DNA of 40,273 bases, taken from a virus. The translations under genes were made by a program, and so were the position numbers. The stretch lies in the IMG/VR virus record IMGVR_UViG_3300015158_000017, positions 1 to 40,273 of that record; one strand, written 5' to 3'. Of the stretch, positions 3,485 through 23,235 are shown piece after piece (position 1 is the stretch's first letter; every line of letters starts with the position of its first letter). The notes under the pieces were generated by a model, which was given only the letters and a program-made list of their open reading frames with translations, made no database searches and had not been told where the DNA came from.

Positions 3485-4045
3485 CTACACGGGGCGAAGA
3501 TGAGGCTCCGTGCCGCCACGCAGACGGTTCACTTCGTTTTCGAGGTAATCGATCACGGTGACGAAGGCTTCGCCGACAGCGGCATTCGGCGCGTTTGCCG
3601 CGACCGCTTCCAGGTGTTTCTTTGCTCCCTCGGCACGGCGCAATTCTTCGCGCTGCGCTCGAGCACCCTCAATTAAGGCGAGCGGTTCGGCTGGCCACTG
3701 GAATTGCGGCGCCATGAGCTCGTAAACGCGCTGCAACAATGGCAGCGGAAAAACGCGAATCATGCCGAGCTGTGGCTGGATCGTGGTGAGATACGAGAGC
3801 TGCATAGCCTCGGCGACGCGACCCACCTTGTCGCCGAAACGCGTCAGGTCGTCGATATGCCAGGGATGCGGGATCCTGCGCAGGAACCCGGGCACGGTGA
3901 CGTGTTCCACGGTTTCGCCAGCGGCGGTAAGCTGGTCGAAGTCATTAATGTCGATGCCGGCCGAGGGATTCACCGCCCCACGGCCGCGCGTGATTGGTCT
4001 TGTATTTTTTCTCATGCCTCGATGCTGGCACAAGGGGTGGGACAT
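3485..4045 (-). CDS. Hypothetical late protein
   Basis: Not recognised. The start at 4045 (MSHPLCQHRGMRKN) is preferred because AGGA lies 6 nt upstream; the internal Met at 4015 (MRKNTRPITRGRG) is an alternative. The protein has an N-terminal basic stretch, a central region rich in hydrophobic and aromatic residues (LTTIQPQLGMIRVFPLPLLQ) and a charged helical C-terminus (GARAQREELRRAEGAKKHLE). It is the last gene of the minus-strand late region and converges with RHH gene B. Confidence 0.55.
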   Translation of the reverse strand: MSHPLCQHRGMRKNTRPITRGRGAVNPSAGIDINDFDQLTAAGETVEHVTVPGFLRRIPHPWHIDDLTRFGDKVGRVAEAMQLSYLTTIQPQLGMIRVFPLPLLQRVYELMAPQFQWPAEPLALIEGARAQREELRRAEGAKKHLEAVAANAPNAAVGEAFVTVIDYLENEVNRLRGGTEPHLRPV

Positions 4046-4067
4046 CCGTTGTCCTATGGACGAAGAA

Positions 4068-4097
4068 AGTGGCGAGTGACAAGTGAGGAGTGACGAG
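4068..4097. repeat. Degenerate repeat family A, copy 1
   Basis: Imperfect heptamer-based run (GGCGAGTGACAAGTGAGGAG and continuation) between the divergent genes at 4045 and 4113. Other copies lie at 6203-6236, 16672-16703 and 19804-19826. Confidence 0.6.
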
Positions 4098-4112
4098 TTT
4101 AAGATCGCGGCC

Positions 4113-4490
4113 ATGAAAAAAATCCTTCTCCTCATCGCCCTGTGCGGCTCCCTCAGCCTACCGGCTGTCGCCGGCGGGAATTTCTTTTCTTACGTGGTTA
4201 AGCCGGGCGACCCGGCACTCCGCATCGCGGTGCAAAATAAGCGCGCCATCAGGCTCCTCACGCTCGCAGCCGAGGGGCCACAAGATTGCGCGCAAATCCA
4301 AGGCCAGTTCTCGTGCACTACTCCGGTGATCAAAGCGCAGATCGCGGGGCAACCCGCAGCAGTCACTATCGTTCAAGGAACTTCGTTACCAGTCGGACAG
4401 GATTTTTACGTCGCCGGGCCCGCCTACTTGACGGTGACAACGAACGCGACGCAGACTTTATTTCTGACGGTATTTCAGGAGTCGAATTAA
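4113..4490 (+). CDS. Small secreted protein
   Basis: 125-aa protein with a textbook Sec signal peptide (MKKILLLIALCGSLSLPAVA, cleavage likely after AVA). The mature part is beta-rich with two cysteines (QDCAQIQGQFSC) that could form a disulfide. Start at 4113 is chosen because the signal peptide begins there. Together with the next gene it is a two-gene plus-strand island inside the minus-strand late region, the usual form of a moron or late-acquired cassette. The function is not recognised; its size and style resemble the exported protein at 20292-20684. Confidence 0.7.
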   Translation: MKKILLLIALCGSLSLPAVAGGNFFSYVVKPGDPALRIAVQNKRAIRLLTLAAEGPQDCAQIQGQFSCTTPVIKAQIAGQPAAVTIVQGTSLPVGQDFYVAGPAYLTVTTNATQTLFLTVFQESN

Positions 4491-4502
4491 GCGACAATCG
4501 AA

Positions 4503-4766
4503 ATGCTGCCGCTATGGATTCTGGTGGGGCTGGTGTTTTTTGCCGGGCTAAGCCTGGAGCAAAAGCTGGCGCGGGCGAACCGGATCGCGCGGGCGACGCA
4601 TGATCTGATTAAGGAAATGCTGGCTGAGCAACTGAAGGCGAATGATTGGCTGGAGAAGATCGCGGCGCGGACGGGAAGAATTGCACCCCCGCCGGTGCCG
4701 GCGGAAACAAAGAAGAATGCAGGCGACACGCCTGCCGCTACAGGGGCGGAAGTCTACAGGCTCTAG
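4503..4766 (+). CDS. Small membrane protein with coiled-coil tail
   Basis: 87 aa: an N-terminal membrane anchor (LPLWILVGLVFFAGLSL), then a charged amphipathic helix (ARATHDLIKEMLAEQLKAND) and a proline-rich end. It follows the secreted-protein gene by 12 nt on the same strand, and its stop overlaps the end of the chitosanase gene by 4 nt tail-to-tail. It could act with the secreted protein at the inner membrane, or be a lysis accessory such as a spanin or antiholin; no family is recognised. Confidence 0.6.
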   Translation: MLPLWILVGLVFFAGLSLEQKLARANRIARATHDLIKEMLAEQLKANDWLEKIAARTGRIAPPPVPAETKKNAGDTPAATGAEVYRL

Positions 4767-5428
4767 GCAGGCGTGGCGCGGATGAGCTCGAAGGTGACGC
4801 CATTCACTACGGCGGGCACATCGGGCCAGAGTTCATATTTCAGACTGGGGGCATCTACCCCGCCGGTGCGTGGGTTGCCGTTAAGGCCGAGAGCGACGGC
4901 CGCCGCGATGGAAAGTTCGCCGATCTTTGCCAGCGGCCCCATGTCGCCTACGACACAGTCGACGGCGCGGCCGTTGCGCAGGTTCGTTACGCGAGCCTTG
5001 CAGCCTAGCACGACGCCTTTAGCGCGGTTCCGGATGTAGTTCTCGACGACGATAAACGGGATGCTTTCGGAATCGAGATAACGCCGGGGATTATCGCGCG
5101 AAAAATCCGGCCACTGATAGGAGGTTGTGGAGACGAAGAAGCCAGGCGCAGGATCGCCTTGCTGCTGGATAAAGGGTTTGCCGTTACGATCGGTGGAGAT
5201 ACCCCACCAGTTACCGGGATGCCCTGCATTTGCGAGATCGTCGAGGCCTTTGCGGCTCTCCGGATTATAAGCGTGATAGGCGCCATCAGCGTCGATATCG
5301 CCATCAGCGGTGAACTCGACGCGTTTGGTGGGGAAGTATTGATACACTTCGCAATCCCAGCCCTCCGAATTCAGGAGACAGAGAAGGCGCTCGCTGGTTT
5401 CGCCGGGCTGGCGATGAGAGGGTTTCAT
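4763..5428 (-). CDS. GH75 chitosanase-like hydrolase, probable endolysin
   Basis: 221-aa protein matching glycoside hydrolase family 75 in motif order: DGDIDADGAYHAY (42-54), PGFFVSTTSYQWPD (95-108), RRYLDSESIPFIVV (115-128) and VVGDMGPLAKIGELSIAAA (159-177). In GH75 the Asp and Glu of the GD-GP-KIGE-S block are catalytic; here they are D162 and E171. GH75 enzymes cleave beta-1,4-linked chitosan. In a phage lysis region the natural role is attack on a de-N-acetylated glycan such as modified peptidoglycan. No signal peptide, so release would depend on a holin. The start at 5428 (MKPSHRQPGE) is the first Met after the upstream gene's stop. Confidence 0.85.
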   Translation of the reverse strand: MKPSHRQPGETSERLLCLLNSEGWDCEVYQYFPTKRVEFTADGDIDADGAYHAYNPESRKGLDDLANAGHPGNWWGISTDRNGKPFIQQQGDPAPGFFVSTTSYQWPDFSRDNPRRYLDSESIPFIVVENYIRNRAKGVVLGCKARVTNLRNGRAVDCVVGDMGPLAKIGELSIAAAVALGLNGNPRTGGVDAPSLKYELWPDVPAVVNGVTFELIRATPA

Positions 5429-5495
5429 GGCAGATGATTCTGAAAAAAGTCGAGCAGACGTTTTGCTCAGTCTGCCAGTGAGCGATTTACCGAAA

Positions 5496-5789
5496 TTATG
5501 CCTGAGCGGCGGGGGTGTTCGCAGCCACTGCTGCCGCCAACGCATCGGCGGAAGATTTCAGGCTGGAACGAAGGGCTTCAAGTTTCGCTGGATCGGTGCC
5601 GGCAGCGGCAAGCTGGTCGTGGAGGCCCTGGATAAGGGTCATGGCGGAGGCTTCGACCGCAGTCTGAGCCGCCACCTGTTCTTCGAGTTCTTTCATGCGA
5701 GTTATGATTTCTTTAGCTGTTCGTCTTATGAGGAAGTAGGTGAGCGCGAACAGACCCACCATGAAAACGGCAAGAACGACGTTGGACAC
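5496..5789 (-). CDS. Single-span membrane protein with coiled coil (possible inner-membrane spanin)
   Basis: 97 aa: N-terminal transmembrane helix (VVLAVFMVGLFALTYFLI) followed by a long helical region (AKEIITRMKELEEQVAAQ) and an Ala-rich tail. This N-in topology with a periplasmic coiled coil fits an i-spanin, and the upstream gene encodes a lipoprotein that could be its partner. Assignment rests on topology and position only. Confidence 0.65.
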   Translation of the reverse strand: MSNVVLAVFMVGLFALTYFLIRRTAKEIITRMKELEEQVAAQTAVEASAMTLIQGLHDQLAAAGTDPAKLEALRSSLKSSADALAAAVAANTPAAQA

Positions 5790-5811
5790 GAGCGAAAGGA
5801 GGCGAAGGGTT

Positions 5812-6252
5812 TCAGGGGCCTTTGTCTGCAGCTACGTGGTCGCTGAGAGTTGCGAGGGCGGCCATCTTGGTGGCGAGAGGGACGGCCGGCTTTCCCTTGA
5901 GGAGTAACATCAGGCGATCGAGGTAGGGCTGGCCTTTGCTATCGATGAAAGGTTTCAGCGCCGCCTTGGCGTCGGCTACGCTGGCGGTGACGGTGGAGTA
6001 GGCGTGCAGACCTTTCTCCAGGGTATAGAGCCAGCCAGTGTCGCCGTTCTTATAGTCCTTGTAATCGGTGAGGATCTCGACAGCGGTCTGGCGAAAATCT
6101 TCGCCCACCACGGCGACCGGAGCGGCGGTGGCAGCGGGGCTATTCGCCGGATCGTTGTTATTAGATTGGCGGATGCCTTCGAGGAAGGAGCAGCCAGCGA
6201 AGAGAGTGACGAGTGACAAGTGACAAGTGACGAGAAGGAGCTTTTTTTTCAT
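5812..6252 (-). CDS. Lipoprotein, repeat-derived signal peptide
   Basis: 146-aa protein with a lipoprotein signal peptide (MKKKLLLVTCHLSLVTLFAG followed by C, lipobox LFAGC). The hydrophobic core LLVTCHLSLVT is encoded by repeat family A (6203-6236), the same degenerate heptamer that is non-coding elsewhere. The mature chain is mostly helical (DSKGQPYLDRLMLLLKGK). It lies between a holin candidate and a coiled-coil membrane protein, so an outer-membrane spanin role is possible, though it is larger than most o-spanins. Start chosen at 6252, where the signal peptide begins. Confidence 0.7.
   Translation of the reverse strand: MKKKLLLVTCHLSLVTLFAGCSFLEGIRQSNNNDPANSPAATAAPVAVVGEDFRQTAVEILTDYKDYKNGDTGWLYTLEKGLHAYSTVTASVADAKAALKPFIDSKGQPYLDRLMLLLKGKPAVPLATKMAALATLSDHVAADKGP
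6203..6236. repeat. Degenerate repeat family A, copy 2 (coding)
   Basis: GAGTGACGAGTGACAAGTGA and continuation, read on the minus strand as the signal-peptide core of the lipoprotein gene. Confidence 0.65.
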
Positions 6253-6256
6253 TTGC

Positions 6257-6583
6257 TTATCGGTTGTCAGGCGGGGTCGCCTGTTTGGTGAGGTCCACAA
6301 GATTCTGGGCGCCCTCTTTGACTGGCGCGCCGCTCATGTCCTGCTGTTTCCAGCCGCCGGTAACGGCTTTGTCTTTCTGGCGAATGCCGTTGTAGGCGAA
6401 GAGAATGAGAGTCGCGATGCCGGCTAGCTTTGCCACCCACGGCTTGTATTCGGGCGGGATGACCATTGCGATGGCACCCTGATCGTAGGAGACAGAGGAG
6501 AGCCAGGTAAGCGCGGCCATGAGAGTGCCGCCGATCATGCTGGCGGTGGTTTTCCAGTTCGCGCCGAAGATTTTGGCCAGCAT
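6257..6583 (-). CDS. Holin-like protein with two membrane spans
   Basis: 108 aa with two predicted membrane helices (ASMIGGTLMAALTWLSSV, residues about 14-31, and VAKLAGIATLILFAYNGI, about 50-67) and a hydrophilic C-terminus. The central YDQGAIAMVIPPEYKPWVAK segment between helices is typical of small phage holins that carry a pore-forming hairpin. It is followed after 4 nt by the lipoprotein gene and shares the cassette with the chitosanase. A TGTCAAA motif (minus-strand TTTGACA) lies 16 nt before the start. Confidence 0.7.
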   Translation of the reverse strand: MLAKIFGANWKTTASMIGGTLMAALTWLSSVSYDQGAIAMVIPPEYKPWVAKLAGIATLILFAYNGIRQKDKAVTGGWKQQDMSGAPVKEGAQNLVDLTKQATPPDNR

Positions 6584-6677
6584 GGTAACTGGTGGGCGAT
6601 GTCAAATCGCGTAAAAGCGCAAAGGCGCTCACGCGACTTTCGGGGACCGCGTGATTGCGCCAGCAATTTTTACGCGG

Positions 6678-7049
6678 TTACTTTTCGGGCTGGCCGGGGG
6701 CGCCGCGGCCGTGCTCGCGGAAGAAGACTTCCTTATTGCTCTCGCCGCGAGCGCGCTGATCCCACATGGTCCTGTGCTGGTCCCACCATACTTTCCAATC
6801 GTAGGTGGCGATAATCTGCCGATTTTTTTCGACGGTGAGTTTCATTTCGGCTACGTCTTTCCTAGCATCGCTCAGGTCACGGAGGACGCCCGCGATGGTG
6901 TAGGTGCCGACGATGACAAACAAACCGACAGCGGAAAGCGCGGCCCAGATAAATTTAAGCCGTTCCATGCCGAGCGCATTTGGGAAGTAAATGGGCTGCT
7001 GATTGATTTCCGCGATGCGGCGAAACTGTTCTTCACGAGCCTTGTCCAT
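6678..7049 (-). CDS. Single-span membrane protein, 123 aa
   Basis: A central transmembrane helix (FIWAALSAVGLFVIVGTYTI, about residues 34-53) is followed by a coiled coil (LRDLSDARKDVAEMKLTVEK) and a tryptophan-rich region (DWKVWWDQHRTMW). The first 17 nt overlap the end of the response-regulator gene. Likely a lysis or envelope protein by position; no family recognised. Confidence 0.6.
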   Translation of the reverse strand: MDKAREEQFRRIAEINQQPIYFPNALGMERLKFIWAALSAVGLFVIVGTYTIAGVLRDLSDARKDVAEMKLTVEKNRQIIATYDWKVWWDQHRTMWDQRARGESNKEVFFREHGRGAPGQPEK

Positions 7050-7479
7050 TTTTAATCTCGGCCAGCCGGGCGGGGGCGGTGTTCCTGAGGTGAGAACCGG
7101 TCACGGCATCGATGAAGCGCGCTTTCTGGATGATGCCATGGATGGAATCGATCTTATCCAGCAAGCCGCGCTTCGAGAGCACCCCTTTAGCGCCGTGGAC
7201 CCAGCAGCGATCTGCCAGCTCGGGATTATTCTCGACCAGAGCAGAGACGATAACCACCGGGGGCTTCAGTTCTTCGATCGCTTCGAGCACTTCGTCTATG
7301 GTGGAACCCTCGAGCATGATATCGCAGACGGTAAGGTCCGCACAAAACTCCAAAGAGGCGCGTTTACCTTCCGCGAGGGTGGACGCGATTTTGCAATCTA
7401 CGAATTCCATCCGCTCGGAAAGCAGCCGGCAAAGCGCGGCCGCGACTTCCGGCTCGTCTTCGATGAGAAGAATTTTCAT
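7033..7479 (-). CDS. Stand-alone response regulator receiver domain
   Basis: 148-aa CheY-like protein. Conserved residues are in place: the acidic pair D8/E9 (LLIEDEPEV), phospho-acceptor D53 (LTVCDIMLEG), S79 (VVIVSALVE) and K103 (GVLSKRG). No DNA-binding or enzymatic output domain follows, only a 30-residue tail (VTGSHLRNTAPARLAEIKNG). Sits between the tail-fibre gene and the lysis genes in the late region. A phosphate source would have to be a host histidine kinase. It may tap host signalling, or act as a phosphate sink, to time lysis or lysogeny; that is inference. Confidence 0.85.
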   Translation of the reverse strand: MKILLIEDEPEVAAALCRLLSERMEFVDCKIASTLAEGKRASLEFCADLTVCDIMLEGSTIDEVLEAIEELKPPVVIVSALVENNPELADRCWVHGAKGVLSKRGLLDKIDSIHGIIQKARFIDAVTGSHLRNTAPARLAEIKNGQGS

Positions 7480-7510
7480 GCCTCGGGGCTATTAGGTGGC
7501 GCGGTCATGT

Positions 7511-9604
7511 TTATGGAATCCGTGTCATGGAGAACTCGGGCGTGTAATTGGCCGCGCCCTGGACATCGAGATTCCCGCCGCTGTCCTGCCTGGCTTGCAA
7601 GGTGACGTAATCGTTCACCGCCAGGGTATAATCGCGCGAGATATGAATAATGGTGCTATAGCCGGAGAGCGCCAGGCGATCGTCCATCGCGATGAAGCCA
7701 GAGCCGGCCGCGCTGTTGAGGCTGATGCCGATGTGGCGGACGCCGGTGGCTATGGCGAAAGCGACATTGCCTTCGATGTGATAGCGCCCGGCCACGGTGC
7801 AAGTGAGCCGGCCGGTATTAGACGAAGTGCTGTGGATGGCGTCGGTGTCGTCGCGCTCGCTATCGAACGTCAGGATAGCCCAGGTAGAATCGGTAAGCGT
7901 CTCGTTTGCGGAATTATAAACGCTCGCGGCAACGGCGGTGGAACCTTTGAGGCTGGTAATGTTCGGCTGCGCGGCGGAGGCGAGCGTGATGGCCTGCGAG
8001 CTCGCCCACGCTGGCGTGCCGGCGATCGTGCCGCTGAGAGTGGGCCCGCTATACGTGCCACCGGTGATTGTCTTGCCGGTAAATGTAAGAGACGGAGGCA
8101 GCGACGCGGTGGGGTTTCCCGAGACGCCATCACCGTTCGTGAGTGTGATCTCGTTCGCTGTGCCGGCAATGTTGCGCTGGGCCCAGGCCCCAGAGCCTGT
8201 GCGCGCAGCCAGGCCGGTGCTGGAAAAGGCGGCGACGGCGTCCAAGTCTGCATCCCACGCCTGAACGTCGGTGCCGATGGTGAGCGACAAGTCTGTTTTT
8301 AACTGCGCGGCGCTACGCGAGCTGACGGTGTTATCGGCGTTGTAACGGGGGAAGGTTATTGCGCCTGGGTTCGCCAACGTAAATAGATTCGCGCCGATCG
8401 TGGTAGCGCCGAGCGCCGTGCGCTGTGCCGAAGCTGATTGCGCGGTGACGGTGTTATCCGCGTTGAGCTGGAGAAACGTGATCGCTGCGGGATTAGCCAG
8501 GTTGAGCAGGTTGCGTCCCACGGTGGTAGAGTTCGTGATGTTCGCCGCAGTAAGAGCGGTGAGGGCGCTGCCGTTCACCGCGCCGAAGGTGCCTCCGTTG
8601 ACGCTCGAGCCGCTAAGAGTGCCGGAGATATCGGTGAAGGCAGGCTGCGATTTTGTGAACGCGCCGGTCGTGGAGTTGTAAGCGGTGAAAAAATTTGAAG
8701 CGGTCGCCGTGGTGTTCGCTGGCGTGACTATCGCGGCGATGTTGCCGGCGTTTTTCTGGATGCCGGCTAACACGCTGTCGCCGGAAGTGATCGTGCCCGC
8801 GCCGGCCACGTAACCAGTGAGCGGCGCCGAGATGGCGCGCGCGTTCGTGTAGTAAAGATTTCCGGATTCCGGAACTGCGGCTGTGTTCAGCGACTGGAAA
8901 GTTTTATCTCCCCGCCAATACTGCGAACTGGTCCCGGCGGCGATCGCTGGCTCCGCGTCGGTGATGCCGTAACCGCTCAGAGTGGTCGGCTTGCTGGTAA
9001 GGCTGGCAAAAGTATGGGTGTGCGCGAGCAGTGACCAGCGGGCGTCGCCCAGAGCATTAAAATCGGTGATACCGTAGCCCGCGATCGTGGTCGGCTTGCT
9101 GGTCAGCGATGCAAAGGTGTGGGTGTGCCCGAGCAGTGACCAGCGGTCGTCGCCTAACGAGTTGAAATCGGTGATACCGTAGCCCCCGATCGTGTTCGGC
9201 TTTCCGGAGAGCGAAGCGAAGGCGCCGTCGAAGCTGGAGGTGCCTGCGCTAATGTAAGTGCGAAAAGCGGGGGCGTCGATAACGGCAAGAGCGTTACGGC
9301 CGAACGCGGTAGTGGTAACGGCAGCGATGGCAGTAAGATCGGAATCGAGCGGCTGCTTGCCAGCCAGGGCGCTATCGACGGCGACACAGTTCGCGCCGTT
9401 AACGTCGCACACTTTGAGCTTGCCGGATTTGAAGTCAAAATCGGTGGTATTAACAATGGAACCATCGGCGTTGACGTAGACGGCCTGTGGCGCGGCAAGC
9501 GCCGTAAAAGCTCCAAATCCTAAGCTCCAAGCTCCAAGAAAAAATAGACAGAGAGATTTAATCTGGAAGCCAGGAAGGGAGCGGAAGCTGATTTTCTTTT
9601 TCAT
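7511..9604 (-). CDS. Tail fibre protein with signal peptide and C1q-like tip
   Basis: 697 aa. The shaft carries tail-fibre repeats: GYGITDFNSLGDDRWSLLGH, then HTFASLTSKPTTIAGYGITD, repeated in two full and one partial units (about residues 150-225), and further degenerate units (TVTAQSASAQRTAL, TVSSRSAAQLKT). The C-terminal 135 residues (SVYNSANETLTDSTWAILTF onward, with GRYHIEGNVAFAI) look like a trimeric C1q/TNF-type jelly roll, a common receptor-binding tip. The N-terminus is a typical Sec signal (MKKKISFRSLPGF, then LCLFFLGAWSLGFGAFTALA-A), partly encoded by repeat family B. A tail fibre would normally stay cytosolic, so this is odd. An in-frame Met further upstream (9634) overlaps the preceding gene's end. 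Confidence 0.8.
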   Translation of the reverse strand: MKKKISFRSLPGFQIKSLCLFFLGAWSLGFGAFTALAAPQAVYVNADGSIVNTTDFDFKSGKLKVCDVNGANCVAVDSALAGKQPLDSDLTAIAAVTTTAFGRNALAVIDAPAFRTYISAGTSSFDGAFASLSGKPNTIGGYGITDFNSLGDDRWSLLGHTHTFASLTSKPTTIAGYGITDFNALGDARWSLLAHTHTFASLTSKPTTLSGYGITDAEPAIAAGTSSQYWRGDKTFQSLNTAAVPESGNLYYTNARAISAPLTGYVAGAGTITSGDSVLAGIQKNAGNIAAIVTPANTTATASNFFTAYNSTTGAFTKSQPAFTDISGTLSGSSVNGGTFGAVNGSALTALTAANITNSTTVGRNLLNLANPAAITFLQLNADNTVTAQSASAQRTALGATTIGANLFTLANPGAITFPRYNADNTVSSRSAAQLKTDLSLTIGTDVQAWDADLDAVAAFSSTGLAARTGSGAWAQRNIAGTANEITLTNGDGVSGNPTASLPPSLTFTGKTITGGTYSGPTLSGTIAGTPAWASSQAITLASAAQPNITSLKGSTAVAASVYNSANETLTDSTWAILTFDSERDDTDAIHSTSSNTGRLTCTVAGRYHIEGNVAFAIATGVRHIGISLNSAAGSGFIAMDDRLALSGYSTIIHISRDYTLAVNDYVTLQARQDSGGNLDVQGAANYTPEFSMTRIP
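9508..9579. repeat. Degenerate repeat family B, copy 1 (coding)
   Basis: Two blocks: AAGCTCCAAGCTCCAAGAA and TTTAATCTGGAAGCCAGGAA. On the minus strand they encode the signal-peptide region of the tail fibre (LPGFQIKS and LGAWSLGFGAF). Non-coding copies lie at 12737-12796, 18641-18682 and 18882-18955. Confidence 0.7.
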
Positions 9605-9623
9605 GGATTCGTGTCGTTCTAAT

Positions 9624-10536: not shown

Positions 10537-10545
10537 GAAATGTTC

Positions 10546-12705
10546 CTAGGCGTAAAGGGCGTGGACAGTCCCGGCGGCGTCCTTGTAAGAGGCTTTCCCG
10601 GAATCGGTGGAGTGATAAATGGTATAGGGAGGCACGAAGAAATCGGGCCACGGAGAGAGCTTTAGGCCGAGCACCCCGGAGACGCGGCCGGTGCTAGTGT
10701 TTGCATCGCCCACGACCAGGTCGCCATTGCCGTAAAGGCGCTGGACAACGACGCCATCGAAGGCGCGGACAATATCGTAAGTGGATGCCTGAGCAGCGGC
10801 GAGAGTGCCATTGGCGCCCATCGACAGAGAATTGTTTTGGGCTGCGCTACCGGGCCTGAAGTAGAGATGGTCCGCGCCCATCACGCTGCTTACGAAAGTA
10901 CCGAGGAGAGTGAGATTTCCGAGACCATCCAGGTCGAGCAGATCGATGTTATCGTGGTTGCGCGCGATCTTCCAATGGGAGTTGGTGGCATTACTTAACC
11001 CGCCGGTGCCCCCCACATAAAGACGATCGGTCTGCGCGGCGCCAAGCGCGGTGTAGCCGACGACTTGATCGAAATTAAAGCCGCGAGTATTGAACCGGGC
11101 TTTGCGGGTGAAGCCGCTGCTGCCATCTTCGGCCATAAAATCGAAGACAGCGCCGGGTTGGTTACCGGTGCAAACCTGGGCGGTGCCGCCGGGTCCGCGC
11201 CGGAGCCGAAGGAAATCGCCGCCTCCTTCGGGCAGTTCAAGCCACTTTTCGAGCGAGCCATCGGCCATGATTTTTGCGCACCACTCAAAGCCTTTTAGCT
11301 CACTGAGGCCGGTAGCCGGATTATACCATTGCCCCCGCATGAAAAAAGAGGCGGGCGAGTAAGGTTTCTCTGCCGTGGCCGGGTTAGCCTGGAGCAGGAT
11401 CGCTCGTGAATCGGCCGTGTCCCAAACTGGGTAGGGGCCGCGATCAAAGAAGGCCAGGAAGCCGGTGAAGGTATCGGCATCAGGACCCATGGAGATCCAG
11501 TTCTCGTTGAGATTACTCCCGCGGTTGATGCGGAGGAAGGTGCCGGCGGAAACGCGATCGACGTTTAGCCGGGTTAGATTAATAACCGGTGCGGTGATCT
11601 GGCCCGCGGTGGTAAGGCCGAGAGTGGCAAGGTCTGAGAGCTGCGCCCAGCGGGAGTCGCCATCGATATAGGTGCGGAGGGCGGCGGGATTTGCTTGAGT
11701 AAGAAGGCCGCGCCCATAGCTCGAGGTGGCAAGAGCAGAAATAGCGGTGAGCGCGCTATTAAGCGGCTGGACACTGGCGTAAGTGCGAAAAGCTCCGGCA
11801 TCGGCTTTAGTAAGGAGAAGGCGGCCCCAGGCGGTAGCAGAGAGAGCGGCAAGCGCGGTAAGTTCGCTACTGATGGGCTGTTTGGTCCCGATGAGGGTGG
11901 TGAGGGAAGCGACGTCGCTGGGCAGCAACGGGACGGGGACGAGGCTGGAGAGATCGAGGAGGGCGCGAGCCACTTCAATGCTGCCCTGGAAGATGATCTG
12001 GGGCGCGGCGTCGCCGGGAAATTGGACCTGAATTTCGCGGGTGAGCCGGAGAAATTTCGGGTTGCCCGCGGCGGTGAAAGCGGCGGCGAGCTCGTTCGTA
12101 TTGAGAACCAGCCTTCCGGTGACACCGATGGGGACGAGCAGGTTCGAAACGTCGAGAGCGATGGTGACGTCCTGGTCCGGCGCGGTGCCGGAGATTTCCC
12201 AGATGTTGCTCCCGCGTTTTTTAGCGACGTAGCTGGGACCGGCGAGCGCCTGGATCTGGGCGGCCTCGGCATCGAACGGGATCTCGAAGGGGGCGTTACT
12301 ATCGAGGGTGACGATAAGCGAGCCGCCACAAGGCGCGGGATCGAGGGTGATCCGCTTGGTGGCGGGAAGATCAACGGTAGCCGATTGGCGGGTAGTGACG
12401 TAAGCAGCAGCCGTGGGGAGCGGCGTAGCGATAGTAGCCAGGCAAAAGGGAGATTGGCCGGGGATACCGAGCGCCACGCGGACGGTGGCGGTGGAAAGGT
12501 CGACATCGTCGAAAGCGCGTTCGCCGGTCAGGTTCGGCGTACAAAGGCGGATGCGGCAGTTGCCTTGGTCTCCGTTGATGATCCGCGGTCCGGAGCCGGA
12601 CTGGCTGGAGGAGACTACGCGCGAGCCGAGAAGGGAGAGAAGAGCGGCGGCGGATTTATCGCCACGGTTGATGATGAGATCGAGCGCTGGCGAGTAAAGC
12701 GGCAT
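10546..12705 (-). CDS. Large tail appendage / receptor-binding protein, 719 aa
   Basis: The first 230 residues form a beta-rich baseplate-like domain (FDDVDLSTATVRVALGIPGQ, VQFPGDAAPQIIFQGSIEVA). A middle part has fibre repeats of the type ELTALAALSATAWGRLLLTK and ALTAISALATSSYGRGLLTQ (three units, about residues 285-360), like those in the smaller fibre (LTAIAAVTTTAFGRN). The C-terminal half is a variable fibre tip ending in YHSTDSGKASYKDAAGTVHA, a common end of phage tail fibres. TTTTGACA lies 19 nt before the ATG. The shared ALTAI/GR-LL repeats suggest the two fibre genes diverged from common modules. Confidence 0.75.
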   Translation of the reverse strand: MPLYSPALDLIINRGDKSAAALLSLLGSRVVSSSQSGSGPRIINGDQGNCRIRLCTPNLTGERAFDDVDLSTATVRVALGIPGQSPFCLATIATPLPTAAAYVTTRQSATVDLPATKRITLDPAPCGGSLIVTLDSNAPFEIPFDAEAAQIQALAGPSYVAKKRGSNIWEISGTAPDQDVTIALDVSNLLVPIGVTGRLVLNTNELAAAFTAAGNPKFLRLTREIQVQFPGDAAPQIIFQGSIEVARALLDLSSLVPVPLLPSDVASLTTLIGTKQPISSELTALAALSATAWGRLLLTKADAGAFRTYASVQPLNSALTAISALATSSYGRGLLTQANPAALRTYIDGDSRWAQLSDLATLGLTTAGQITAPVINLTRLNVDRVSAGTFLRINRGSNLNENWISMGPDADTFTGFLAFFDRGPYPVWDTADSRAILLQANPATAEKPYSPASFFMRGQWYNPATGLSELKGFEWCAKIMADGSLEKWLELPEGGGDFLRLRRGPGGTAQVCTGNQPGAVFDFMAEDGSSGFTRKARFNTRGFNFDQVVGYTALGAAQTDRLYVGGTGGLSNATNSHWKIARNHDNIDLLDLDGLGNLTLLGTFVSSVMGADHLYFRPGSAAQNNSLSMGANGTLAAAQASTYDIVRAFDGVVVQRLYGNGDLVVGDANTSTGRVSGVLGLKLSPWPDFFVPPYTIYHSTDSGKASYKDAAGTVHALYA

Positions 12706-12796: not shown

Positions 12797-12802
12797 GTTC
12801 GC

Positions 12803-13471
12803 TTAGTTCGGGGAAGTGCCGGCTGGGCTGGCTGGTGGCGAGGTGGTAATGGTGCCGCCGGAGGAGGAGGAAGGCGGAGTGGCGGCCTGGGCGGCATCGG
12901 CGTGATCGGCGGAACGGTAAAGCCATTGCCAATGGCGCTGGAGCCCATCATCGATGAGCCAGGCTTTGTGCTGGGGATTATCGAAGTAAGCGATCCAAGC
13001 GGCACGGGCGAGAATGGCATTGGGGAGGGAAACGTTGTCATCCAGATGATCGATGAGCCAGCGTGTGACCTGGGCTTGCTCATCAGTGGTGAGGTAACGC
13101 TGCAAGCTATGGGTGCCGGTGCCGGCAGTGGTGATATCCACTTCGGTGCCGCCTACGGTAGCGGAGACCTTAAAATCGTTCGCGGTAAGGCCAGAAGCGA
13201 TGACGTAATACGTAGTAGCGAGGGAAAGACCGCCTGGCAAGGTGCCTGTGGTAGTAAAACGGACGGGCGTATTCGCGAGCAAGCCGTGCCCTGCGGTAGT
13301 AAGAAGGTTAGTGGCGGCAACCGCTGTGACCGTGGGAGATTGATCCGGCGCGATGGCATCGCCGGGCGGCGGGGCGTGAACAAAGGATGGGTGAACGGGC
13401 GGATGGTTTACGCCCTCGACGGCGGCGTAACGCCGGAAGGTTTTATCGGCACCGGAAAGATTAAGAGCCAT
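12803..13471 (-). CDS. Tail-associated protein with phage beta domain, 222 aa
   Basis: Contains a region of the kind common in phage structural proteins: VTAVAATNLLTTAGHGLLAN, TPVRFTTTGTLPGGLSLATT, YYVIASGLTANDFKVSATVG and a closing GTGTHSLQRY (about residues 48-125). A helical region follows (EQAQVTRWLIDHLDDNVSLP) and the C-terminus is low-complexity Ser/Pro/Thr. Position between the PKD protein and the large fibre suggests a distal tail role. Not assigned to a named family. Confidence 0.65.
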   Translation of the reverse strand: MALNLSGADKTFRRYAAVEGVNHPPVHPSFVHAPPPGDAIAPDQSPTVTAVAATNLLTTAGHGLLANTPVRFTTTGTLPGGLSLATTYYVIASGLTANDFKVSATVGGTEVDITTAGTGTHSLQRYLTTDEQAQVTRWLIDHLDDNVSLPNAILARAAWIAYFDNPQHKAWLIDDGLQRHWQWLYRSADHADAAQAATPPSSSSGGTITTSPPASPAGTSPN

Positions 13472-16667: not shown

Positions 16668-16671
16668 AAGG

Positions 16672-16703: not shown

Positions 16704-16722
16704 CGGGAGAGAAAGAGAAGAT

Positions 16723-17421: not shown

Positions 17422-17434
17422 ATTTACAGGTCCT

Positions 17435-17917
17435 TTAGCCGAGCTTATAGCGGGCGCCGCAGTTAATCTTGGATTCGCCGTTCGCGGAGAAGACGGTACC
17501 GACTTTTTCGAGAATCCAGGTAGTGGTGACGCCGGCAACGGTAGTGGTGAACTCGGCGAACAAGAGTGGGGCTGCTATAGTGGCGCCGCCCATTCCGGTG
17601 CCATCGGTGCCTGTGCCGGTAGCGTTACCCACCCACTGGAGAGTGAGCGGGCAAAGGGGGATTTCCTCGGTGCCAAACTGGCGTTTGGGGCGGCCACGGG
17701 AATCGTTAATGACGACCCATTTGCTCATGCGCTCGATGCTCATGGCATCGACCGTCCAGACGACACCGCCGATGGTGACGTCCTGGGCGCCGAAGGCGGC
17801 GCCGTTATCGTTCGTCTGGCCGAGAGCTGGATTTACGCAGAGATAGGAGAGAGCTACCGGCGAAAAGAGAACGCCGGTGAAGAACGCGAGCAGGAGGAGA
17901 TCGGCGATGAGGCGCAT
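17435..17917 (-). CDS. Tail-tube candidate with N-terminal membrane/signal segment
   Basis: 160 aa. The body is beta-rich (GAQDVTIGGVVWTVDAMSIE, PLCPLTLQWVGNATGTGTDG, AAPLLFAEFTTTVAGVTTTW), of the size of a small tail-tube protein, and it lies two genes before the tape measure. The N-terminal 30 residues (RLIADLLLLAFFTGVLFSPV then ALSYLC) are strongly hydrophobic. Either the true start is internal or this virion protein is made with an export signal. Tail-tube identity is inferred from position and size. Confidence 0.6.
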   Translation of the reverse strand: MRLIADLLLLAFFTGVLFSPVALSYLCVNPALGQTNDNGAAFGAQDVTIGGVVWTVDAMSIERMSKWVVINDSRGRPKRQFGTEEIPLCPLTLQWVGNATGTGTDGTGMGGATIAAPLLFAEFTTTVAGVTTTWILEKVGTVFSANGESKINCGARYKLG

Positions 17918-17923
17918 GAGGGG

Positions 17924-18118: not shown

Positions 18119-18175
18119 ATGCTTTTCCGCGTGTCAAAAGAGGGGACGATCATGAGCACGAGCACGAGCAGGATT

Positions 18176-18637: not shown

Positions 18638-18640
18638 GGG

Positions 18641-18682
18641 AGAAGAAGGGATTTAATCTGGAAGCCAGGAAAGCCAGGAAGT
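18641..18682. repeat. Degenerate repeat family B, copy 3
   Basis: GGGATTTAATCTGGAAGCCA followed by GGAAAGCCAGGAAG in the 53-bp gap between the genes at 18637 and 18691. Confidence 0.65.
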
Positions 18683-18690
18683 GGGAGGAG

Positions 18691-18876
18691 TTATTTGTAG
18701 GACCAGAGAGCGGTGGTGATGGCGTCGAGGGAGATGGCGCTCACTTTAAGAGGTGCGTCCGCAGGATGGTAAACGGCGACTAGCTGTTTGGCGTGCTTGC
18801 TGTCTCGAGCGTTCGGCACGACGAACACGTTCTCGATCCGATTACTCCGAAGGTAGATGACGAGATATTTTTTCAT
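18691..18876 (-). CDS. Small hypothetical protein, 61 aa
   Basis: Starts MKKYLVIYLRSNRIENVFVV at 18876; a longer reading is antisense to nothing real and overlaps the neck gene. Short alpha/beta protein ending ISLDAITTALWSYK. Flanked on both sides by repeat family B. Function not recognised. Confidence 0.55.
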   Translation of the reverse strand: MKKYLVIYLRSNRIENVFVVPNARDSKHAKQLVAVYHPADAPLKVSAISLDAITTALWSYK

Positions 18877-18881
18877 GGTTT

Positions 18882-18955
18882 TAGAATTTTTATCTGGAAG
18901 CCAGGAAGCCAAGGAGGTTTTCCCCTTTTCATGGTTTTCCTGGTTTCCAGATTCA
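18882..18955. repeat. Degenerate repeat family B, inverted pair
   Basis: TCTGGAAGCCAGGAAGCC and, after a short pyrimidine-rich loop, its approximate inverse TTTTCCTGGTTTCCAGA. Transcribed RNA could fold as a hairpin in the 88-bp gap between the genes at 18876 and 18965. Confidence 0.55.
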
Positions 18956-18964
18956 TCCGCTTCT

Positions 18965-19798
18965 TCATCCGAAGATGCCTTTGTATTTCTTCGCGATAGC
19001 CTGGAGATCGGAGAAGACGCCGTGCCGGAAGTTATTCCGGAAGTAACCCATCTCGCCTTGAATGGCCCATGAGAGGATGCTGGCGCCGTTGATCTTGAAG
19101 CGGGAGAAAGGATAGCTGTTGGCAAGCTCGTAGTAGAGCTTACCCGGACCTTCGTAACGGGCACTGCCGTTCGCGGGCTGGTAGCTAGCGCCACTGCTGG
19201 GCCGCGCGACGGCGACTTGCTGACCGCCGGTGACGTTGTTCAAGGTGATCCCAAGTTTCTGGGCGATCTGGAGCCAGGAGTTTCGGGCGAGGCCGCGGGC
19301 GCGGAGGGCGGCATCGAGGAGACCGCGGAGGCGGCCTTTTACATCGGCCTGGCGAAAGTTATCGAGGGCCTGGAACCGGCGGAGCATGCCGGCGCCGGGA
19401 TGGATGGCGTTCTCCATGATGACCCAGACTTTACCGCCTCTGCCAGAACGCGCGGCGCGGACGCGGAGGGCGGCGCGCTGAGACTCAGTAACACTGGTGG
19501 AGACGCTGGGATCTTCGCCATACCAGACGCGGCCTTCCACGCCGCCGCGCCGGCCGCTATTGATGCTCATGGCCATGCCGGGGAGGCGGGCGCTGTTCCC
19601 TTTCGCCTTGAACTTGGCCCGGATGAACTTGGCGAGCGCCATCCTGGTGCGGCGAATACAGCCTTCAATGATGCGCTGGCTAAGGGTGCGCAGGATGCGA
19701 TCGGTCTGCGGCATCTGGCCGAGGGAAGAGAGGGACGATTCGAAGCCGCGGACCATGGCTTCGAAGCCCCGAGTATCGATGGTGATGGTGGGAGTCAT
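18965..19798 (-). CDS. Neck / minor tail protein candidate, 277 aa
   Basis: Begins MTPTITIDTRGFEAMVRGFE, with a basic helical N-terminal half (RRTRMALAKFIRAKFKAKGN) and a C-terminal beta/aromatic part (KLYYELANSYPFSRFKINGA, WAIQGEMGYFRNNFRHGVF). The N-terminus and position resemble HK97 gp10-type head-tail proteins but it is longer than that family. Assigned by position with moderate confidence. Confidence 0.55.
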   Translation of the reverse strand: MTPTITIDTRGFEAMVRGFESSLSSLGQMPQTDRILRTLSQRIIEGCIRRTRMALAKFIRAKFKAKGNSARLPGMAMSINSGRRGGVEGRVWYGEDPSVSTSVTESQRAALRVRAARSGRGGKVWVIMENAIHPGAGMLRRFQALDNFRQADVKGRLRGLLDAALRARGLARNSWLQIAQKLGITLNNVTGGQQVAVARPSSGASYQPANGSARYEGPGKLYYELANSYPFSRFKINGASILSWAIQGEMGYFRNNFRHGVFSDLQAIAKKYKGIFG

Positions 19799-19803
19799 GC
19801 GGG

Positions 19804-19826
19804 GAAAGTGATCAGTGATCAGTTAA
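19804..19826. repeat. Degenerate repeat family A, copy 4
   Basis: GAAAGTGATCAGTGATCAGT in the 24-bp gap between the genes at 19798 and 19823. Confidence 0.5.
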
Positions 19827-20188
19827 TTTTGCGCTTTACAGCCTAACACCCACTCTGGGCTGAGAGGATGGGTGCCGGCGATTTCGTTGATACGGAGGGC
19901 GATCTCGGCCTCGCCTTCTTTGATAGTGATAGGTGCATCGATCGTGGGCGCGAATGCGGGATAGGAAGCCTTGATGACGCGGACAATCGCATCGTGCATA
20001 TCGAGGAAGCCTGCCTGCTCCGTTTGCTGCCGCGTCTTAATCGGACTGTAGTAGCCCGTGAGCAGCGGGAATTCTCCGCTGTTGTAATCGACGGTAACCG
20101 GAGTGCCATCGGTTTTTGTGCCGAAGGCCTCCTGGCGGAAAGCGGCCGCACTGCGCTGAAGTGCCCGCATCTGATTCCCGAGGCTCAT
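19823..20188 (-). CDS. Head-tail connector candidate, 121 aa
   Basis: N-terminal basic helix (NQMRALQRSAAAFRQEAFGT), strands (GTPVTVDYNSGEFPLLTGYY) and a C-terminal domain (TIKEGEAEIALRINEIAGTH). First gene after the terminator at 20207-20251 and first of the tail-side genes, which suits a connector or stopper. No family motif recognised. Confidence 0.55.
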   Translation of the reverse strand: MSLGNQMRALQRSAAAFRQEAFGTKTDGTPVTVDYNSGEFPLLTGYYSPIKTRQQTEQAGFLDMHDAIVRVIKASYPAFAPTIDAPITIKEGEAEIALRINEIAGTHPLSPEWVLGCKAQN

Positions 20189-20206
20189 CCCAGTCTAGTT
20201 TGCGTG

Positions 20207-20251
20207 TCGAAAACGAAAACGCCGGGCGGTGATACAAGGAACCGCCCGGCG
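20207..20251 (-). terminator. Rho-independent terminator after the head module
   Basis: Perfect 11-bp stem CGCCGGGCGGT / ACCGCCCGGCG (20220-20230 and 20241-20251) with a 10-nt loop. On the minus strand it is followed by GTTTTCGTTTTCGAC, a broken U-tract. It lies between the small exported protein gene and the connector gene, so head-module transcripts would end or be attenuated here. Confidence 0.8.
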
Positions 20252-20291
20252 TCCGTCGATAACAGGGCCTAACCAGGACCTCGCGGGAAAT

Positions 20292-20684
20292 TTATGGCTG
20301 GAGATTGAATCGAACCAACAGAGTGCCGTTCAACGCCTGGGTGGCGTGAAGATTGACGATCTTGACCGTCATGGTGCCGCTGGCGTAAGTCACGGTGCTA
20401 AGCACAGGAATGCCCTGGGTGTTCGTGCCATTCGCAATATTGACGGCGGCGATGCTGTCGGTGCGCACTTTCGAATTAGTCAGCGTGAGGGTGTAACTGG
20501 CGGCAGCGGCAGTGGTGAGCGCTTCGCTAGTGATCGTGCCACTCAGGTTATTGAGCGTAGCGGCCCCGCTCGTGGCAGTGGCGGCCTTGGCGTGGCGGTA
20601 ATCGCCACCATCGGCCAGCGTGACGCTGGACCCAATTACGCAAGCGAATGCGATGGCAAATAGTGACAAGAGGAATTTTTTCAT
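20292..20684 (-). CDS. Small exported beta-rich protein (decoration-like candidate)
   Basis: 130 aa with a clear Sec signal peptide (MKKFLLSLFAIAFACVIGSS then VTLADGG, cleavage likely after TLA). The mature part is Thr/Ala-rich beta sequence (AATLNNLSGTITSEALTTAA, GTMTVKIVNLHATQALNGTL). It is the second gene downstream of the major capsid and is followed by a terminator. Position suggests a decoration or cement protein, but the signal peptide argues for export. Start at 20684 chosen by the signal peptide. Confidence 0.65.
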   Translation of the reverse strand: MKKFLLSLFAIAFACVIGSSVTLADGGDYRHAKAATATSGAATLNNLSGTITSEALTTAAAASYTLTLTNSKVRTDSIAAVNIANGTNTQGIPVLSTVTYASGTMTVKIVNLHATQALNGTLLVRFNLQP

Positions 20685-20691
20685 AATGATT

Positions 20692-21354
20692 CTAACTGGC
20701 GGTGGACTTGTTTCGGCGGGAAGCTGCAATGGCGTTGACGATATCGTTCTTCCGAGTCAAACCTGCGAGATCGATGGTTTCGGCGGTAGCGATATCCTTG
20801 AGCTGGTCAACGGTGTTATCATCGCGGAGCTGCCGGAAGCTCCGGAGACGGGCTAGGATCTCGGGCTTGCGATCCTCTCCGGTGAGATCGATCCCCTCCT
20901 CTTCGGCAAGAGCTTTGAGGTCGGGAATGGTGAGGTAATCAAGCAGGCCAAGAGTTTCAAGTTCGGAAGGCGTGTTCTTGAGCGCCTCTTCAGCCAGGAC
21001 CTGCTTCTGCTCGTCGCTCAGCTCGCGCAGGCGGCTCTTGGTCTGATCGATCTGTTTGCCGACAAACTCGTTATCGCGCTGGATCTCGCGCGCTTCCTCA
21101 AGAAGCCGGGCCCGGCGAGTGCCTTCGTTCGCAGCGGCTTCCGCTTGTTTCTCTTCATCGCTCCGGGGCATGAGAAACTGGTGGCGGCGGCGGGCATCGT
21201 AGAGGTTCAACTCAACGAGAGCGATCTCGGAGTAATCGGCGTTTTCCTTCCCAGCGTTAACGATCTTCCTGAACGCATCGTTCGCGTCAGGGTCGCCCAT
21301 GGTAATGACGCCGATTTTGCCGTCGTGGTCGCGGCCGAAAAGGAGATGGATCAT
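20692..21354 (-). CDS. Protein with two SAP/Rho_N-like modules
   Basis: 220 aa from MIHLLFGRDHDGKIGVITMG. An N-terminal alpha/beta part is followed by a long coiled coil (RRARLLEEAREIQRDNEFVG) and two helix-extended-loop-helix modules: YLTIPDLKALAEEEGIDLTG with DRKPEILARLRS, and NTVDQLKDIATAETIDLAGL with TRKNDIVNAIAAS. Such SAP/Rho_N modules bind nucleic acids. Directly downstream of the major capsid, it could be a head completion or DNA-contacting virion protein. An in-frame ATG upstream (21429) lies before the hairpin at 21371-21421 and is less likely. Confidence 0.6.
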   Translation of the reverse strand: MIHLLFGRDHDGKIGVITMGDPDANDAFRKIVNAGKENADYSEIALVELNLYDARRRHQFLMPRSDEEKQAEAAANEGTRRARLLEEAREIQRDNEFVGKQIDQTKSRLRELSDEQKQVLAEEALKNTPSELETLGLLDYLTIPDLKALAEEEGIDLTGEDRKPEILARLRSFRQLRDDNTVDQLKDIATAETIDLAGLTRKNDIVNAIAASRRNKSTAS

Positions 21355-21370
21355 AGCGACGCCTGGGAGT

Positions 21371-21421
21371 GGACTGCGGGGCAGGCACGGATTTCTCCGA
21401 TCACACACATCCCCGCAGTCC
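21371..21421. promoter_or_regulatory. Long-loop hairpin between capsid and SAP-like genes
   Basis: Perfect 11-bp arms GGACTGCGGGG (21371-21381) and CCCCGCAGTCC (21411-21421) with a 29-nt loop. It lies 16 nt before the ATG of the SAP-like gene on the minus strand. No U-tract follows, so an mRNA processing, stability or translation-control element is more likely than a terminator. Confidence 0.6.
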
Positions 21422-21468
21422 GATTTCACATTATGGATTTAATTTGGTTGAGGACTCGTTAGTCTAAA

Positions 21469-22548
21469 TTAGGTGGCGTTCGAGCCGTGGATGAGGCGCG
21501 CGGCGGCGACCTCGCCCTTGTCGAAGCCGTAGTTGCACTCGATCACGCGCTTGTCGGTGTCGTGATCCGGATCGCCCCAGTGGCGATACTCGAGCGAGAT
21601 TTGGGTCTCGGCGTCGGTCGCGATCTGGTAATCCACCAGGACTCGCTTGATGGACTCGGCCGGCTCGATGGGCGAGAAGGCGACGAGGACGGCGCTCATG
21701 TAGGTAAGGAGCCCGATCAGATATTCATTGCCAAGCGCGGGCACTGCATTGCTCGTGGCGTATTCGAACCCGAAAATGTTCGGGAGCATGCCGGTGCGAA
21801 TCACCTGGTCGGTGCCGATCGAGTAAGCGGCCTTGAAGGCGTTATCCTTCAAGAGCGAACCGTCGAGGTTCGGGTTCGTGATCAGGCCGCGGCCGCTTGT
21901 CGGCCAGGGGACTTTATTGAGGGCGGTGCGCCAGTCGATAACAGCGTTCGAATCGTAGTTCGCGCTGGTAGGATTCGCCGGCGTGCCCTGGACGGTGTAG
22001 CCATTCGCGGCGGTAAAGATGGAAAGGATATCGGCCAGGACGTCATAAGCCAGCTTCTCGCCTTTCAGCGAGCCGATCTTCTGCGCGTTCAGCATAGGCA
22101 AACGGGCGAGGTCGCGGCTGGTGAAGTGGAGCGGCTGATATTTCCGCTTATTGATCGTTACTTCCCTGACCTGGGTCGCGGAGTCGTCATCGAAAACGTA
22201 ACCATCCGCCTGGTCGAAGTCGCGGCTGGCGGAATTCTCCAGCGGGTAGTAAGGCACCGCAACCTTGTCGCTGCCCTTAAGCTGGACGTTGCGGAAGACG
22301 CTGGCGAAAACCGTAATCGGGAAAACCGCGCGGCGGAAGGCATTAATCGCCGCATCCAGGATGACGTTGAGATTCAGCTCGGCATCGATCGTGTTATCAC
22401 GGAGAAGTGCGAAGGTCCGCAACGGCGTGAGGAGCGCGGCGAGGATGAACGCAACAATGAGTGCAAGGAAAGCGTTGTTGCTGACAAGGAACGCGGCGAG
22501 GGAAGTGATCGCGATCGCGATCCAGGCGGAGAGGCGGTTTTTATTCAT
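21469..22548 (-). CDS. Major capsid protein with N-terminal hydrophobic extension
   Basis: 359 aa from MNKNRLSAWIAIAITSLAAF. The body has a coat-protein character resembling the P22 gp5 group (VAVPYYPLENSASRDFDQAD, REVTINKRKYQPLHFTSRDL, LKGEKLAYDVLADILSIFTA) and a C-terminal part (ISLEYRHWGDPDHDTDKRVI). It follows the scaffold candidate and protease. The N-terminal 48 residues contain two hydrophobic segments (AWIAIAITSLAAFLV and FLALIVAFILAALLT), unexpected in a capsid. They may be removed by the S49 protease, or a TTG further in (before RTFALLRDN) may be the true start. TTTTGACA lies 38 nt upstream. Confidence 0.85.
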   Translation of the reverse strand: MNKNRLSAWIAIAITSLAAFLVSNNAFLALIVAFILAALLTPLRTFALLRDNTIDAELNLNVILDAAINAFRRAVFPITVFASVFRNVQLKGSDKVAVPYYPLENSASRDFDQADGYVFDDDSATQVREVTINKRKYQPLHFTSRDLARLPMLNAQKIGSLKGEKLAYDVLADILSIFTAANGYTVQGTPANPTSANYDSNAVIDWRTALNKVPWPTSGRGLITNPNLDGSLLKDNAFKAAYSIGTDQVIRTGMLPNIFGFEYATSNAVPALGNEYLIGLLTYMSAVLVAFSPIEPAESIKRVLVDYQIATDAETQISLEYRHWGDPDHDTDKRVIECNYGFDKGEVAAARLIHGSNAT

Positions 22549-22614
22549 GGGATTTTTGCAAAGCAAACGATTTCGAGAAAAACAAGTGTCAAAAAGAGCG
22601 AGGATGGCGGCGGG

Positions 22615-23235
22615 TTATTCGGCGGTTTTTCGCGCGTTGGCGTATTCCTTGAGGGCTTTCTCGTTCTTCTGGTAGAAGGCGAAGGCGCTACCGGGCTTGA
22701 CCGATCCTGCCTTCTCCTGTTCGCGGAGCTTCGAGTATTGCTCCCAGATGTTGCCGGCGGCGTTCTCCGGGGTCTGCGAGGACGGAACGGCAGTATTCGG
22801 ATCGATGCCGCGCAGGTTGCAGAGTTTTTCGAGACGCGAGACGTTGCCGTTCGCGTTGTCGCGCTCGGTGGTCAGACTGGTGGCAGTGGTCTTGGCAATC
22901 GCGAGATCGCCCTTGGTTTTCCCGTGCTCTTCCTTTTCTTTGGTCAGGTCGGCAGTGACGGCGTCGAACTGGCCCTGGATGCGCGTACGATCGTTGTTCG
23001 CTGTGGAGAGGCGGCTAGCCAGGTCTTTTCCCGCAGCCCATAGGCGGCTAATGATGCCGGCAGCGCTGGTGTTCTTCGCTTCGAGGGTTTCGCCTTCGAG
23101 AACAGGAGCTGTCTCTGTGTCGAAAGGACCGGAAGCGGGAGCTGGAGCGGGGTCGCCGCCACCGGAAGGCACGCCCGTGTCAGGAGCGAGAAGCGAAATG
23201 CAAACGAAAGGAAGAAGCGAAAGGAAGTTTCTCAT
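22615..23235 (-). CDS. Scaffold-like coiled-coil protein with signal-like N-terminus
   Basis: 206 aa between protease and capsid genes, the usual scaffold position. A long central coiled coil (DAVTADLTKEKEEHGKTKGD, TSLTTERDNANGNVSRLEKL) and a basic C-terminus (FYQKNEKALKEYANARKTAE) fit a scaffolding protein. The first 17 residues (MRNFLSLLPFVCISLLA) form a short hydrophobic signal-like segment followed by a Pro/Gly/Ala linker. TTTTGACA lies 16 nt before the ATG. Confidence 0.7.
   Translation of the reverse strand: MRNFLSLLPFVCISLLAPDTGVPSGGGDPAPAPASGPFDTETAPVLEGETLEAKNTSAAGIISRLWAAGKDLASRLSTANNDRTRIQGQFDAVTADLTKEKEEHGKTKGDLAIAKTTATSLTTERDNANGNVSRLEKLCNLRGIDPNTAVPSSQTPENAAGNIWEQYSKLREQEKAGSVKPGSAFAFYQKNEKALKEYANARKTAE

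Follow-up and report, generated by a model that had tools for sequence, protein, structure and literature searches.

The stretch of DNA analyzed here, which we call the window, is a whole virus record of IMG/VR (IMGVR_UViG_3300015158_000017) with a length of 40,273 bp. Its late genes lie on the minus strand, and those for the terminase, portal, protease, scaffold candidate, and major capsid protein (MCP) follow one another in the order expected for HK97-type phages (Table 1). The subject of this study is the N-terminus of MCP, at which a hydrophobic leader precedes the capsid core, and what this leader may mean for the site of head assembly. An initial annotation had proposed that export-type N-termini are common to the virion proteins of this phage, which turned out to be true for MCP and partly for appendage proteins, but not as a general rule.

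MCP is an HK97-fold, P22-coat-like protein. It matches the major head protein family phrog_283 with E=4e-19 (residues 68-278 of the longer open reading frame, ORF) and phrog_267 with E=6e-8; the match to the Pfam family P22_CoatProtein is below the cut-off only. The AlphaFold model of the protein has a predicted TM-score (pTM) of 0.72, and its comparison with known structures using Foldseek gave 260 PDB matches at E<=0.001, the best of which was 8zdh (4.6e-12), with the HK97-fold capsids of T7 and P22 and the encapsulins among them. Phrog_283 is the family of the MCP core of the window and its relatives, but its profile starts at the core and has no leader. Residue 68 of the longest ORF is the first to match, at profile position 11, so that about 52 residues of the protein that starts with the ATG at 22548 lie ahead of the start of the family. 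Position 4 of the PHROG major-head profile aligns with residue 50 of the MCP of L024, a relative with a leader.

Table 1. Features of the window, with positions in the record and the basis of each call (KD, Kyte-Doolittle hydropathy).
Feature	Position	Strand	Basis
MCP leader, residues 1-52: predicted two-helix hydrophobic hairpin and flexible linker	22393..22548	-	hydropathy, AlphaFold, alignment
Leader hydrophobic segment 1, residues 7-22	22483..22530	-	SAWIAIAITSLAAFLV, mean KD 2.12 over 16 residues
Leader hydrophobic segment 2, residues 26-41	22426..22473	-	AFLALIVAFILAALLT, mean KD 2.88 over 16 residues
Alternative internal TTG start, judged unlikely	22420..22422	-	spacing of genes in relatives; distance of about 190 nt to the scaffold stop
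MCP gene, leader and HK97-fold core, 359 amino acids	21469..22548	-	phrog_283, AlphaFold, Foldseek
Scaffold candidate, coiled-coil-like after the N-terminal motif L-APD-G-GGG	22615..23235	-	alignment, 10 homologues
S49-type head maturation protease	23364..24185	-	Pfam PF01343 E=7e-7; phrog_53 E=3e-22
Portal protein, lambda family	24182..25810	-	Pfam PF05136 E=4e-22
Terminase large subunit (GpA)	28029..30089	-	Pfam PF05876/PF20454
Small protein of the structural module, carries a signal peptide; its position (MCP+2) is head-fibre-like	20292..20684	-	MKKFLLSLFAIAFACVIGSSVTLA, followed by DG; phrog_18251 E=8.5e-6 on longer ORF
Tail-fibre-like protein, signal-peptide-like N-terminus	7511..9604	-	phrog_697 structural protein E=1.6e-13 on longer ORF; rule-based call
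Tail-tube candidate, hydrophobic N-terminus	17435..17917	-	gene order only; identity without sequence support
Lipoprotein of the lysis region, lipobox LFAGC, ordinary	5812..6252	-	sequence
Exported protein, carries a signal peptide; on the opposite strand, outside the late operon	4113..4490	+	MKKILLLIALCGSLSLPAVAGG

The leader, which has the sequence MNKNRLSAWIAIAITSLAAFLVSNNAFLALIVAFILAALLTPLRTFALLRDN in the window, is strongly hydrophobic, as had been noticed in the initial annotation; the hydrophobicity lies in two segments, and only 4 of 5000 composition shuffles reached its hydropathy maximum. Membrane segments and signal peptides were called here by hydropathy and simple rules only. For two divergent MCPs, each from a different lineage, AlphaFold modelled the leader as a hairpin of helices. 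In the MCP of the window, helices 3-24 and 26-47 and a linker (43-53) with a predicted local distance difference test score (pLDDT) <50 precede the capsid core; in the MCP of L024, helices 2-20 and 24-38 are followed by a low-confidence linker and then the core. All leaders have a common plan, in which a positive N-terminus is followed by a hydrophobic helix, a short turn, a second hydrophobic helix, a linker, and the core; the turn is near-neutral and often reads GPLAA or NPLAA. Charged residues are absent from both 16-position segments in 6 of 10 leaders, and the other 4 have a single one. Prediction thus finds the two hydrophobic helices, the short turn, and the positive-inside ends of a two-helix membrane hairpin, and the predicted topology is N-in/C-in, in which case the MCP core would stay cytoplasmic but anchored. 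A Sec signal peptide on MCP was considered and rejected, as the second hydrophobic helix comes directly after the first in every member. A Cys stands just before the MCP core and after the leader in seven genomes (L004 at 12560-12690, L020, L021, L048, L049, L051, and L121). Lipidation at the Cys often found after helix 2 was dismissed, as there is no lipobox.

Several observations together indicate that the leader is translated as part of MCP. It is in frame with MCP in 11 of 11 genomes, and it does not alter the distance to the upstream gene: the gap from the upstream stop codon to the MCP start is 45-66 nucleotides (nt) in the phages with a leader, and the gap to the core start is 32-69 nt in leaderless relatives. 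In the window, the scaffold stop lies 66 nt from the ATG at 22548 and about 190 nt from the TTG at 22422; with an internal start, the gap would thus grow to some 190 nt or more. The leaders of L047 and L048 diverged over 57 codons with a nonsynonymous rate (dN) of 0.12 and a synonymous rate (dS) of 0.79, and in an alignment of 18 MCPs, the leaderless ones start exactly at the core, including gp11 of the cultured phage P8625. The leader is real, in frame with MCP, conserved in its architecture, and under purifying selection in the best pair. An internal start at the TTG, which had been put forward for checking in the initial annotation, clashes with gene spacing and codon evolution, and it was rejected as an unlikely start of MCP on these two grounds and on the recurrence of the leader. 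A second MCP product from an internal start, made alongside the form with the leader, is possible.

Relatives were collected from IMG/VR by scans with alignments of MCP, portal, terminase, protease, and the second-family MCP. Besides the window, ten genomes have a leader of 46-58 residues, nine of them IMG/VR phages (L002, L004, L020, L021, L024, L047, L048, L049 with the near-identical L050, and L051) and one a phage-like contig (L121) of a verrucomicrobial genome, whose class is shared with a Spartobacteria metagenome-assembled genome (MAG). The earlier concern that related capsids could lack the hydrophobic segment applies to many relatives, but these ten genomes do have it. When 69 MCP cores were placed on a tree, the leader label needed 3 changes, all of them forced by well supported branches, in comparison to a mean of 10.4 for shuffled labels. 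The three groups with a leader are the window together with L002, a clade of eight members, and L121, which sits on a long branch; the closest MCP relatives that IMG/VR yielded for L121 have no leader. Judged from these sequences, the leader occurs in at least three MCP lineages whose close relatives are without it, and the earlier proposal of a gain of membrane tethers is well supported in so far as it refers to MCP. Three gains, or fewer gains combined with losses, are possible. The common plan suggests that the leaders are homologous between the lineages, which short hydrophobic stretches cannot prove.

A direct search with the MCP of the window against genome contigs gave no match, and the INPHARED search yielded only distant matches for MCP and portal and, for the small signal-peptide proteins, short and distant ones at most. 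The phage group appears to infect Verrucomicrobiota, on the basis of related prophages in Spartobacteria and Chthoniobacter MAGs and of L121, and not of the window itself. The cultured Verrucomicrobia phage P8625 has the same order of GpA terminase, portal, ClpP-like protease, and P22-coat-like MCP, but the leader is absent from its MCP, and its structural proteins carry no signal peptides.

The best explanation for the leader, to which we assign a probability of roughly 55%, is that head assembly is tethered to the membrane via the MCP hairpin. The hairpin would insert into the inner membrane of the host with both of its ends in the cytoplasm, and it would tether the capsid subunits where the membrane-bound portal and the scaffold begin the prohead. 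The shell would then grow at the membrane surface, and the MCP core would stay where packaging happens, yet tied to the membrane. At head maturation, the hairpin would probably be cut off or released, with the neighbouring S49 or ClpP-like protease as a speculative candidate for this step, similar to the loss of the N-terminal delta domain in HK97-type phages. That delta domain is an N-terminal addition to an HK97-fold MCP that is removed on maturation. The leader is likewise an N-terminal addition to such an MCP and is presumably removed on maturation, but it differs from the delta domain in being a hydrophobic hairpin of 46-58 residues that is usually found beside a separate scaffold gene.

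Precedents for an assembly start at the membrane come from other tailed phages. T4 prohead formation begins at the inner membrane, and the heads are released after maturation cleavage (PMC9958956). Proheads of both T4 and SPP1 start there on a membrane-bound portal (PMC9958956; for SPP1, PMC13212656). In T4, with its portal gp20 and chaperone gp40, the part described as membrane-attached is the portal and not the shell protein (PMC9958956), and the membrane-associated procapsid precursors of SPP1 are anchored through portal gp6; the main text of the SPP1 paper does not contain the word 'transmembrane', and no description of an MCP hairpin was found in it (PMC13212656). No tailed-phage MCP with a transmembrane or signal segment was found in a literature search, which was limited and is no proof of novelty. 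What is new is the hairpin leader; neither the MCP core nor the gene order is unusual. In our best reading, head assembly would here be tethered to the membrane not only through the portal, as in T4 and SPP1, but through the shell subunit as well. Most simply, a shell anchor would have been added directly to a portal pathway of the T4/SPP1 type and would be lost on maturation.

Several points weigh against membrane-tethered head assembly. Membrane insertion is a prediction from hydropathy, and several hundred anchored subunits must leave the membrane before packaging by a putative release step. Of the 48 loci in verrucomicrobial genomes with a scorable MCP core start, 47 are leaderless, L121 being the exception. 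The leader co-occurs with S49 proteases as well as with ClpP-like ones, the latter in L021 and L121, and an S49 protease as the dedicated partner of the leader was rejected for this reason. In the pair L004/L024, the leader is saturated (dN 0.87, dS 0.78), and selection there hence acts on the character of the leader and not on its sequence. Finally, no Shine-Dalgarno sequence is visible in the window at either the ATG at 22548 or the TTG at 22422, so this test is silent with respect to the start choice. The missing Shine-Dalgarno sequence at the ATG and the mere presence of the TTG are what could be cited for a wrong start, with MCP beginning internally and the hydrophobic stretch being untranslated or a chance upstream frame. 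We regard this as very improbable, given a leader that is in frame in 11 genomes, an unchanged gap to the upstream stop, a dN/dS ratio well below 1 in L047/L048, and an identical helix-turn-helix plan everywhere.

The main rival is that the leader is a hydrophobic, delta-domain-like assembly piece. It would pack against itself or against the scaffold within the prohead, stay out of membranes altogether, and be removed when the head matures. This is a clearly less probable alternative that nevertheless deserves to be taken seriously, as the leader is located where the delta domain is found in HK97, a protease gene adjoins, and scaffold N-termini carry a short hydrophobic patch before APD-G-GGG. 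However, delta domains are charged coiled coils, to which the almost uncharged segments of the leaders bear no resemblance; the scaffold patch is also found in the leaderless L014 and L031; and in L021 and L121, MCP is not preceded by a separate scaffold gene. It is unlikely that the leader hides MCP from host sensing, for example by a capsid-triggered defence, or from premature assembly, instead of placing head assembly. A patchy pattern of repeated gains on the tree would be in line with an arms race, but with a hairpin, the core of MCP stays in the cytoplasm. Slightly less likely still is a more far-reaching variant of membrane templating, in which inward-facing MCP hairpins would pull lipid into the prohead and produce, at least transiently, a membrane-lined head of a tailed phage. 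Least probable of all is a wider option raised in the initial annotation, namely that Sec exports the virion proteins and the particles are put together in the periplasm. Signal peptides do occur on structural-module proteins, in the window on the small protein close to MCP and on the tail-fibre-like protein, and in G003-G005, L005, L008-L013, L051, and L121. Yet export signals are absent from terminase, portal, and protease as well as from the tape measure and other tail genes, ATP-driven packaging requires the cytoplasm, and the second helix and positive N-terminus of the MCP leader predict a cytoplasmic core. Membrane-tethered head assembly with a cytoplasmic core remains our preferred explanation.

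The other N-termini of the window form a mixed picture. The initial annotation had described export-type starts as consistent across the head, tail, and lysis modules, which was an overstatement: no hydrophobic N-terminal segment is present in most structural genes, among them those for portal, protease, terminase, and tape measure. Counting N-termini with a KD value of at least 2.0 over 16 residues in five phages gave 10/97 for structural versus 2/53 for early/packaging genes (Fisher p=0.14), so that a general enrichment in structural genes was discarded as weak. The signal is concentrated in MCP (5/5 phages) and its neighbours. Apart from the MCP leader, these phages have a second, separate trait in the signal peptides of their head- and tail-fibre proteins. 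The small capsid-side protein has a clear signal peptide, as had been claimed, and both it and the tail-fibre-like protein show a positive n-region, an h-region, and an AXA-like site by the rule-based call. Proteins with signal peptides occupy the same MCP-adjacent place in G003, G004, G005, L008-L013, and L051. One MCP-adjacent family (G003, G004, G005, L047) has FHGA and GLIKG motifs in common, with a signal peptide in three members and none in L047, whose start lies 24 nt after the MCP stop. The signal-peptide-like start of the tail fibre recurs on fibre- or spike-like proteins of related phages (G004, L005, L009, L051, L121), but no sequence homologue of the fibre itself was found in the related phage loci. 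Just after the MCP region, L005:8795-11713 (972 amino acids) and L009:4512-7631 (1039 amino acids) encode spike/fibre-like proteins with signal peptides, the former pectate-lyase-like (E=1.5e-10) and the latter with a weak GDSL-like match below the curated cut-off.

For the scaffold candidate, the hydrophobic stretch is present as described, but it is not generally a signal peptide. Relatives keep the L-APD-G-GGG motif even where the hydrophobic stretch is lost (L020, L048), and export of this protein was rejected because the h-region is not conserved across ten aligned homologues. The patch before the motif is present in leaderless phages, too. The supposed tail-tube protein indeed has a hydrophobic N-terminus, but its identity was not supported (hhalign probability 0.1% against the tail tubes of relatives). 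The lipoprotein and the exported protein on the opposite strand were confirmed, but are ordinary. In some signal peptides, the hydrophobic stretches are encoded by 7-nt tandem repeats of the CTTGTCA or CCTCTGT type, as at 6170-6275 (-) of the window in the lipoprotein (MKKKLLLVTCHLSLVTLFAGC) and at L051:10000-10060 and L051:14922-15010; the capture of repeats like these may give rise to signal peptides.

Some further observations concern the MCP core and the genome. A window protein near the tail genes (12803-13471, minus strand) contains a domain that is 55% identical to an insertion at residues 271-352 of the L024 MCP, and insertions of this type are found in the MCPs of L024, L047, L048, and L021, which amounts to a shuffling of domains between the insertions of MCPs and other structural proteins. 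In some leaderless relatives, the head protease and, fused behind it, MCP share a single ORF of about 700 amino acids (L005:6050-8158, L007:5674-7950, L008:8768-10948), and in the leaderless L054, L056, L057, and L059-L061, it is fused behind an unclassified region of about 400 amino acids. A tRNA-Ser gene (gct; 27164-27237, minus strand) between the terminase and portal regions is possibly a relic of an attachment site or cargo.

The site in the cell at which tailed-phage heads are built is becoming directly testable, with the heads of T4 and SPP1 starting at the inner membrane through the portal. If the conserved membrane anchor on the shell protein is true, it would be a natural and swappable switch for probing the role of membrane attachment in head assembly, for which the presence or absence of the leader among related phages provides the basis. 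The leader also indicates that the N-terminus of an HK97-fold capsid protein can repeatedly acquire a new module, and a separate question, posed by the signal peptides of the fibre and spike proteins, is how an exported appendage could join a particle that is made in the cytoplasm.

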